Source of the DNA: a virus
IMG/VR virus record: IMGVR_UViG_3300023174_000057
Coordinates: 1 to 64,000 of that record
Strand: one strand, 5' to 3'
DNA length: 64,000 nucleotides
Below the pieces are notes generated by a model. That model was not told the DNA's origin and did not search any database. It saw only the letters and a list, made by a program, of their open reading frames with translations. How positions within the stretch are numbered: the stretch's first letter is position 1; every line of letters begins with the position of its first letter. The position numbers and the translations under genes were made by a program. Positions 56,546 through 58,839 of this stretch are shown piece by piece.

Positions 56546-57036
56546 AGCCCGTCGAGACGTACTACCACTGCACCTACGCGCGAAACCTAAGCGCGATTGC
56601 GAAGAAGGGTCTGCGCCCTTCGGCAACGCCCGTACTGATGCGTGCGGCACCGGGCAACCTTCGGGGCGTGTACCTTTCGGATTCGGGAGGGTTGCCCTTC
56701 TGGTTCCGCAAGCTGATCGACTGGGCGCAGCACGATTCGGACAACCCCGTCGAAGATGGGATGGTCCCGGTGGTGTTGCGGGTCACCACGGCGTGTGACA
56801 CCGTCGAGGACGTTGCGGGATCGCAAGACTCGGGGAACGAAGCGGTCGTGTGCTCCCGCCCCATCGTGCCCGGAGCGATTCGGGTGTGGGACGGGAGCTC
56901 GTGGGTGCCGGTGTCTCAGGGGGTCGATCAAGACCGTGGGGCGCAATGGGTCGAGGACGAAGATTTCGACCTCGGCGGCTACTACGAGCTACTGGGCCCC
57001 TACGAGAGCCCGCTCATGCCACGCGACCGGGCGTAA
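56542..57036 (+). CDS. ADP-ribosyltransferase-fold-like protein
   Basis: 164 residues from GTG 56542. YYHCTYARNLSAIAKKGLRPS matches the opening of ART/Tpt1-like folds (YH.T...NL..I...GL.P); a NAD-contacting Ser/Tyr region may be GVYLSDS. The catalytic Glu cannot be placed surely. It may modify a host protein or RNA, or be an inactive relative. It ends 12 nt before the orphan sbcD start. Confidence 0.55.
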   Translation: MKPVETYYHCTYARNLSAIAKKGLRPSATPVLMRAAPGNLRGVYLSDSGGLPFWFRKLIDWAQHDSDNPVEDGMVPVVLRVTTACDTVEDVAGSQDSGNEAVVCSRPIVPGAIRVWDGSSWVPVSQGVDQDRGAQWVEDEDFDLGGYYELLGPYESPLMPRDRA

Positions 57037-57048
57037 CGTCTGGGCACC

Positions 57049-57078
57049 ATGCCCGTCACCCTCATCTGGCGAACCTAA
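57049..57078 (+). pseudogene. Orphan original start of sbcD
   Basis: ATG 57049 encodes MPVTLIWRT then TAA. The same peptide, MITLVWRT, opens the sbcD gene 816 nt downstream using different codons. This is evidently the ancestral 5' end cut off by the endonuclease-gene insertion. Confidence 0.7.
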
Positions 57079-57867
57079 TCTCGTTGCGCTAGGCTTGCGG
57101 ACGGTGCATACTTCCCGTATGCACGAACGGCGACACGCCTCTCGTACTTTTACTTGTGCCTGTGGCAAGATCGTCACGGGAAAAGTCCGTATGGGCGATG
57201 ACCTTTGTTTGGCCTGCCACCTCAACACTAGACCGAAGTATCCCCGTAAAGGGGTTGAAGTTCCGTGCGAGTGGTGCGGGAACTGGGTGTACCTAACCCG
57301 TTCGGCGCATCAATCTTCGGGCCATATTTTTTGCTCCAGAGAGCATAGCAACGAATGGTGGCGTCGGGATCAAGTTGTCTTGACGTGTAAGGTTTGTGGG
57401 AAAACACGCAGGGAGGCCAAATCCCACGCCAATCGGTACAAGGTGTCTTACTGTTCCTTGTCTTGCCGAAACTCTGACCCCGATATGAGGGAACAACTGC
57501 ATCAAGCCAGCTTGATGCAAGAAATCCTCTTTGAGTCCAGTGCCGAGAAATTGGGTTTTTCTTTTTTGGATGCGCTAGGTGTCAGCTACGAGAAACAACA
57601 TCCCATCAAAAGCAAGTTCATCGTCGATGCCTTGATACCACACGTCAAGGTGGTCTTGGAATTCGATGGGGACTACTGGCACGGAAATCCCACCCTCTAC
57701 AAGACGCCGGATGCGAGGCAAATTCGGCAGATGAAGCGGGATGCGGCTCGGGACACCTACTTGGGCTCATGTGGGTATCGGGTGGTTCGTATTTGGGAGT
57801 CCGACCTGAAGCGTAATGCCGATGCAGTCAAATCTCGTCTGTGCTCGATCCTCATGGTGTCTCAATG
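57079..57867 (+). mobile_element. Homing-endonuclease insertion in the sbcD 5' end
   Basis: The segment between the orphan start and the recoded sbcD start has visibly lower GC and different codon use from its flanks and carries one gene, the endonuclease. It splits sbcD after codon 9 and restores the reading frame by providing a new ATG. Confidence 0.7.
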
Positions 57868-57868
57868 A
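57119..57868 (+). CDS. Free-standing homing endonuclease, VSR/DUF559-like (EDxHR type)
   Basis: 249 residues. Three Cys-rich knuckles come first (FTCACGK...CLAC; VPCEWCGN...FCSREH; LTCKVCGK...CSLSCRN). The nuclease domain follows: FIVDALIPHVKVVLEFDGDYWH with Asp and Glu of a PD-(D/E)XK core, then RDAARDTYLGSCGYRVVRIWE, the very-short-patch-repair-type ending. GC is lower than in the flanks. CATACT lies 6 nt before the ATG, so it may have its own promoter. Its stop overlaps the sbcD start (ATGA). Confidence 0.8.
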   Translation: MHERRHASRTFTCACGKIVTGKVRMGDDLCLACHLNTRPKYPRKGVEVPCEWCGNWVYLTRSAHQSSGHIFCSREHSNEWWRRDQVVLTCKVCGKTRREAKSHANRYKVSYCSLSCRNSDPDMREQLHQASLMQEILFESSAEKLGFSFLDALGVSYEKQHPIKSKFIVDALIPHVKVVLEFDGDYWHGNPTLYKTPDARQIRQMKRDAARDTYLGSCGYRVVRIWESDLKRNADAVKSRLCSILMVSQ

Positions 57869-58839
57869 TAACGCTTGTGTGGAGGACCGACGTACACCTG
57901 TCGGATCACACCCCCCGCTCGCGTACGGACAATTGGACGGACACGGTTCTTCGTAAGCTCTCCGACATCGGTGAGATCGCCCGCAAATCGGGTGCGAACG
58001 CCGTGATCGACGGCGGGGACTTCTTCGACATCAAGGCACCGGGCCGGAACTCTCACGCCTTGATTCAGCGGGTCATGGCCGTCCACCGGGACTACCCCTG
58101 CCCGGTGTTCGCGAACGTCGGCAACCACGACTGCGTGTACGGGGACTACAGCTACCTTCCGCAGCAACCTCTGGGAGTTCTGTACGAGGCCGGGACGTTC
58201 CGCCGTCTGTACGACGAGCACGAGGCCGTGTTCACCCTCCCCGGCATCAAGGTCCGGGTGGTGGGTGTGCCCTACCACGGGGTGAAGTACGACATGGACC
58301 GCCTTGCCCGGATCAAGAGGGGTGACGAGGACTACTTGGTGGTGGTCTGCCACCTGCTGGCCAGCCCGACGCAGTCCACCATGTTCGACGCCGAGGACGT
58401 GATCCGGTACGACACGCTGGACGACCTCCCCGACGTGGACGTGTGGGCCTTCGGTCACTGGCACAAGGACCAAGGGATCGAGCTCACCCCCGGCGGCAAG
58501 ACGGTGGTCAACATCGGGAGCCTCACCCGGGGGGCTCTCTCCCAAGACAACCTTGACCGGGTGCCCTCCGTGGCCGTGATGCGCTTCGACCGCGACGGGT
58601 TCACCGTCGAGAAGCTCTCCGTCCCCCACGCCCCGGCCAACGAGGTGTTCGACCTTGAGAAGCGGGACAAGGAGCAGATCCAGCAGACGATGATCGAGGA
58701 GTTCGTCGATCACCTGTCGCAGACCTTCGCCCCGTCAGCCCAGAAATCCCTCACGGATGCTGTGAGGGACATTCCCGGCGTGCCCGACTCCGTGCGCGAA
58801 AAGGCCATCAACTACATCGAGCGGGCGGGCGGGCGGTAG
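57865..58839 (+). CDS. sbcD: SbcD/Mre11-like DNA exonuclease
   Basis: 324 residues. Metallophosphoesterase motifs: TDVHLSD (9-11 catalytic), IDGGDFFD, NVGNHDC, VCHLLA and FGHWHKD, followed by SVAVMRFD and a capping tail. Works with the split SbcC halves to process DNA ends and hairpins. The first codons (ATA ACG CTT GTG TGG AGG) are recoded compared with the orphan start, and the gene now relies on translation through the endonuclease gene. Confidence 0.85.
   Translation: MITLVWRTDVHLSDHTPRSRTDNWTDTVLRKLSDIGEIARKSGANAVIDGGDFFDIKAPGRNSHALIQRVMAVHRDYPCPVFANVGNHDCVYGDYSYLPQQPLGVLYEAGTFRRLYDEHEAVFTLPGIKVRVVGVPYHGVKYDMDRLARIKRGDEDYLVVVCHLLASPTQSTMFDAEDVIRYDTLDDLPDVDVWAFGHWHKDQGIELTPGGKTVVNIGSLTRGALSQDNLDRVPSVAVMRFDRDGFTVEKLSVPHAPANEVFDLEKRDKEQIQQTMIEEFVDHLSQTFAPSAQKSLTDAVRDIPGVPDSVREKAINYIERAGGR

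Follow-up and report, generated by a model that had tools for sequence, protein, structure and literature searches.

A Vsr-like homing endonuclease gene that probably invaded the start of a phage sbcD gene and supplied a divergent replacement

Introduction

How can a homing endonuclease gene (HEG) come to lie among the first codons of a conserved gene and be followed by an otherwise normal reading frame? This question is raised by the locus of the DNA-repair gene sbcD in virus record G000, a single metagenomic contig of 166,764 bases, of which a stretch of 64,000 nucleotides (the window) was analysed here. In this locus the native sbcD start is stranded upstream and runs into a stop codon past its ninth codon; it is followed by a HEG and then by a second start in frame with the rest of sbcD. 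Comparison with uninterrupted relatives leads us to favour a reading, probable in our view, in which a free-standing Vsr-like HEG inserted itself among the first codons of sbcD and brought along a substitute 5′ end of divergent sequence.

Layout of the locus

The features of the locus are collected in Table 1. On re-reading, the orphan ATG, its stop codon and the restart are all found where the initial annotation had placed them. Its description of sbcD as split by a Vsr-like HEG of lower GC content also holds: the break lies directly 5′ of the codons of the D-x-H motif, the HEG has a GC content of 52% compared with 65% for the whole window, and the encoded protein matches Vsr (see below). GC3 is 61% for the HEG and 88–89% for sbcD and recA.

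Table 1. Features of the interrupted sbcD locus (positions are those of the window)
Feature	Position	Strand	Remark
Motif GGGCGTAACGTC	57029..57040	+	Precedes sbcD in relatives; probable promoter or initiation signal
Orphan native sbcD 5′ end, MPVTLIWRT then TAA	57049..57078	+	Agrees with uninterrupted L001–L003 up to 57075
Inserted DNA 5′ of the added start, 52% GC	57076..57864	+	From comparison with relatives and composition
Perfect 8 bp hairpin GTGCATAC-ttccc-GTATGCAC	57104..57124	+	HEG ATG (57119) in the 3′ arm; region z = −3.75
HEG, 249 amino acids: N-terminal Cys pairs (zinc-finger-like), C-terminal Vsr-like nuclease (EFDGDYWH)	57119..57868	+	
Added divergent copy of the sbcD start, MITLVWRT	57865..57888	+	ATGA overlap with the HEG stop
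sbcD (Mre11/SbcD-like phosphoesterase), intact	57865..58839	+	

The orphan reads ATG CCC GTC ACC CTC ATC TGG CGA ACC TAA, while the added start reads ATG ATA ACG CTT GTG TGG AGG ACC GAC GTA CAC (MITLVWRTDVH). The TGA of the HEG overlaps the ATG of sbcD as ATGA. A ribosome site is not evident at this ATG, and sbcD is therefore likely to be translated by re-initiation after the HEG stop. Hairpins limit the translation of HEGs in T4, and the hairpin at the HEG ATG recalls these.

Exact copies of GGGCGTAACGT occur in the window at 2923, 8015 (minus strand), 47825, 57029 and 63572, and near matches number eight where 1.3 are expected. The motif would fit the −10 box (TAACGT) of leaderless genes. 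It lies 16 nt from the start codon in L001–L003 and at the remaining four exact copies of the window. Its distance to the orphan ATG is 20 nt rather than 16, owing to an extra TGGG, as expected if the orphan start were out of use and released from selection.

The native and the added start

A scan of viral contigs for SbcD yielded 35 sbcD loci. Among these are uninterrupted relatives with 89% (L001 and L002) and 81% (L003) protein identity to the sbcD of the window, which open GGGCGTAACGTCCACC-ATG-CCC-GTC-ACY-CTC-GTC-TGG without interruption. Both the upstream motif of the orphan and ATGCCCGTCACY, as well as its ATGCCC and the next codons, are those of the sbcD start in these relatives. Homology to the orphan ends exactly past ...CGAACC at 57075 and picks up again 3′ of the added copy, at GAC GTA CAC, and the neighbouring genes are syntenic in L001 and L003. 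The resemblance of the orphan to the sbcD starts of the relatives is not due to chance. These relatives share the codons of the orphan together with its upstream motif, which identifies the orphan as the native start and the one at 57865 as added. This comparison, which the initial annotation had called for, places an edge of the insertion at 57075 and finds the codons of the orphan, not the downstream ones, in the relatives.

Over the seven codons that the two starts share, the orphan agrees with each of L001, L003 and L004 in 18 of 21 bases, compared with 13 of 21 for the added copy and the orphan of the same genome. The added copy matches L003 in 16 of 21 bases and the distant relatives L019 and L034 likewise in 16 of 21. 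Three of the seven codons differ synonymously (ACC/ACG, CTC/CTT and CGA/AGG), two show V/I exchanges (GTC/ATA and ATC/GTG) and two are identical (TGG and ACC). The view that the new codons differ at most synonymous positions thus stands for the three synonymous changes, but it passes over the V/I exchanges, the identical codons and the missing codon 2 (CCC). This codon is likewise absent in the distant relatives L019, L025 and L034. Nine residues precede the Asp of the D-x-H motif in the close clade (MPVTLVWRT-D) and eight or fewer in most of the distant clade, and the added start is the shorter N-terminal form. A pattern search for the added start in viral contigs matched solely the sbcD contig of L025. 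In L006 and L007 (5001–6035) sbcD is about 60 bases longer than in the other relatives.

A divergent sbcD is the probable source of the replacement start, in preference to recoding in place, although 21 bases cannot decide between the two. Import is favoured because the added start shares the shorter N-terminal form with the distant clade; the base comparison, with 16 of 21 for either clade, does not separate the two origins. The added copy may be the start of the sbcD of another phage, brought in by co-conversion. Of the codons for residues shared with L001, 14 of 23 are identical at alignment columns 13–40 compared with 56 of 72 at columns 40–120, a small difference which suggests that the imported tract might reach further.

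We regard it as rather unlikely that the native start was instead first duplicated by the insertion and that its codons were then changed by selection for immunity. The changes are indeed synonymous or V/I, as such selection under protein constraint would yield, and a perfect duplicate would have remade the site; the loss of codon 2, which gives the shorter N-terminus of the distant relatives, is nevertheless needless for immunity, and the divergence from the orphan (13 of 21 bases in common) exceeds that between related phages (18 of 21). Statistics on recoding versus import have five codons to draw on, too few to decide. The proposal of the initial annotation that the element carries a recoded start is thus supported in part: a second, divergent copy is present, but it may have been imported rather than recoded by or for the element.

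The endonuclease and its family

The N-terminal part of the HEG product contains three Cys-pair units (approximately residues 13–33, 50–76 and 90–116) and is followed by the Vsr-like domain. The protein matches PF04480 (DUF559) with 38.9 bits (cut-off 20.6), while the Pfam Vsr family stays below its own cut-off. A profile of four relatives matches Vsr (PDB entry 1cw0, E = 9e-8) and a mobile intron protein (PDB entry 3r3p, E = 1.6e-6). In the four-sequence alignment Glu143, Asp170, His188 and Asp208 are invariant, and we take these to be the catalytic residues of Vsr-like homing endonucleases.

The nearest relatives are found in L124 (42% identity) and in mycobacteriophages such as Techage (37%). 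The family comprises about 170 loci, and its members often abut or split conserved genes. Many adjoin or sit inside apparent genes for DNA methylases that are encoded on the other strand (L124, L128, L131, L136 and L118). In Mycobacterium phage Techage (L118, 2605–4987) the related HEG lies antisense between both portions of a DNA methylase that is split; a similar methylase split occurs without a HEG in phage Ksquared (L122), and the methylase of MilanaBonita (L123) is longer, in one piece and by its appearance intein-containing. In L135 (1766–5231) the apparent halves of a split helicase gene, as read from the peptides, flank a related HEG together with a probable uracil-DNA glycosylase gene. 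A second, weaker Vsr-like homologue is encoded by the same phage genome beyond the window (G000:C1:115628-115912).

Intron and intergenic alternatives

The initial annotation had named an intron core as one of two findings that would speak against its reading. None of group I or group II was found around the HEG with Rfam, where the region gave no match at E values up to 1, and none reached the gathering score at 15 HEG loci. In Microcystis phage MaeS (L119, 3701–3858) a weak group I match of 27.5 bits, below gathering, overlaps the end of the related HEG. An unrecognised self-splicing intron that holds the HEG, with MPVTLIWRT and DVHLSD joined as exons, is very improbable in our estimate. An exact join after ACC would give back the uninterrupted protein, and the 5′ region folds better than its shuffled versions (z = −3.75), but besides the missing Rfam match the last 24 nt of such an intron would by chance have to encode MITLVWRT in frame after an ATG.

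Equally improbable is a HEG that is merely intergenic, with an orphan peptide that stems from an unrelated minigene or from an artefact of assembly: the HEG relatives of L137 and L139 do lie between genes without a duplication, but this explanation is contradicted by the motif, ATGCCC and next codons of uninterrupted sbcD starts that the orphan carries.

Proposed mechanism of insertion

For the invasion of sbcD by a free-standing HEG we propose the following course. The HEG product would cut uninterrupted alleles near a candidate site at CTCATCTGGCGAACC/GACGTACACC, and repair of the break would use a donor with the HEG directly upstream of a divergent sbcD. On the right side recombination may have occurred within or after the conserved TGG-AGG-ACC-GAC-GT, while the left side would have been joined to the broken end without homology. 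The structure seen here would result if homology existed on the right (sbcD) but not on the left. In T4, when homology is confined to one side, homing leaves an illegitimate junction on the other (PMC2988022). As for a donor, the HEG was present in none of the 35 sbcD loci, and the left junction was found in no other contig.

In the resulting arrangement the translation of sbcD would depend on re-initiation at ATGA. SbcD would remain functional with the divergent copy in place, and no intact candidate cut site would be left; this copy would presumably escape cutting. A self-protecting insertion needs such a divergent copy, because an identical duplicate would recreate the uninterrupted site.

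Search for further instances

The initial annotation had suggested a search for this arrangement at other genes. A scan for duplicated gene termini, of limited sensitivity, scored 349 candidates from 170 HEG loci and gave no convincing second case. The highest scores were 44 (L112), 42 (L043, Arg-rich) and 39 (the window, in third place, and L137); the null distribution has its 95th percentile at 30 and its 99th at 60, with an upper tail that is probably inflated by near-identical loci. The scan alone therefore proves nothing and its negative outcome is weak. By position the match in L137 falls inside the upstream gene, and L112 is intein-like, as read from its peptide. A flank-to-flank duplication scan over the HEG loci was too insensitive, and the window itself did not stand out in it. 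Compared with relatives, the gene behind the HEGs of L137 and L139 has no start duplicate beyond ATGCC, and for the gene behind the HEG of L135 an informative relative was not found. With no other convincing duplicated gene start among the 170 HEG loci, the design is so far known from this one locus.

Relation to known systems

The closest parallels are the mobile ORF (mORF) gene hybrids of fungal mitochondria, found in Allomyces atp6 and in Glomus atp6, atp9, cox2 and nad3 (PMC3630166). There the native copy is 91–98% identical in nucleotides to relatives and the supplied copy 64–81%, and import from another species has been proposed (PMC3630166). As in the mORFs, an endonuclease ORF lies inside a host gene of which one end is duplicated, the stranded native end being near to that of relatives and the supplied end divergent; here this trait is seen as 18 of 21 compared with 13 of 21 bases, over a length of only 21 nt. 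The mORFs replace the C-terminus and encode LAGLIDADG or GIY-YIG enzymes, whereas here the N-terminus and start codon are replaced, the enzyme is Vsr-like and the host is a phage. The phage arrangement is thus the 5′ mirror image of the mORFs, which bring a divergent C-terminus.

Mitochondrial introns of Tremella fuciformis contain a duplicated piece of the host gene and have been proposed to swap it (PMC7315562). They too carry a sequence homologous to a portion of the gene that they interrupt, but they are predicted introns of organelle genes, and their duplicate is at the 5′ end of the intron and resembles the following exon. Among T-even phages, split genes are known for Aeh1 mobE/nrdA, T4 mobA/gene 60 and phage 25 seg/gene 43, and mobE of T4 phages has a stop/start overlap with the preceding gene (PMC2988022). 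Our locus resembles these in having a free-standing phage HEG in a conserved gene and a start/stop overlap like that of mobE; it differs in that the T-even split genes give two separate polypeptides that reassemble, while here the replacement start keeps one whole protein. The nuclease domain is homologous to that of the Vsr-like (EDxHD) homing endonuclease 3r3p, a mobile intron protein, although no intron was detected with the HEG of the window.

In the open-access literature searched, we found no phage case of a replaced gene start. A similar trick is already known from fungal mitochondria; the phage version with a replaced start is represented by one instance. That phage HEGs can act as 'insert plus rescue' elements, in which a cleavage-resistant start of the target gene is a working part of the mobile element, is a tentative and on balance doubtful extension. 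If true, such elements could enter conserved genes at critical positions with neither intron nor intein. The locus itself illustrates how a HEG that lacks both can settle at a functionally critical position of a conserved gene and leave that gene unbroken, by means of a substitute end that differs from its target. Insertions of this kind would give rise to hybrid gene starts among phage genomes.
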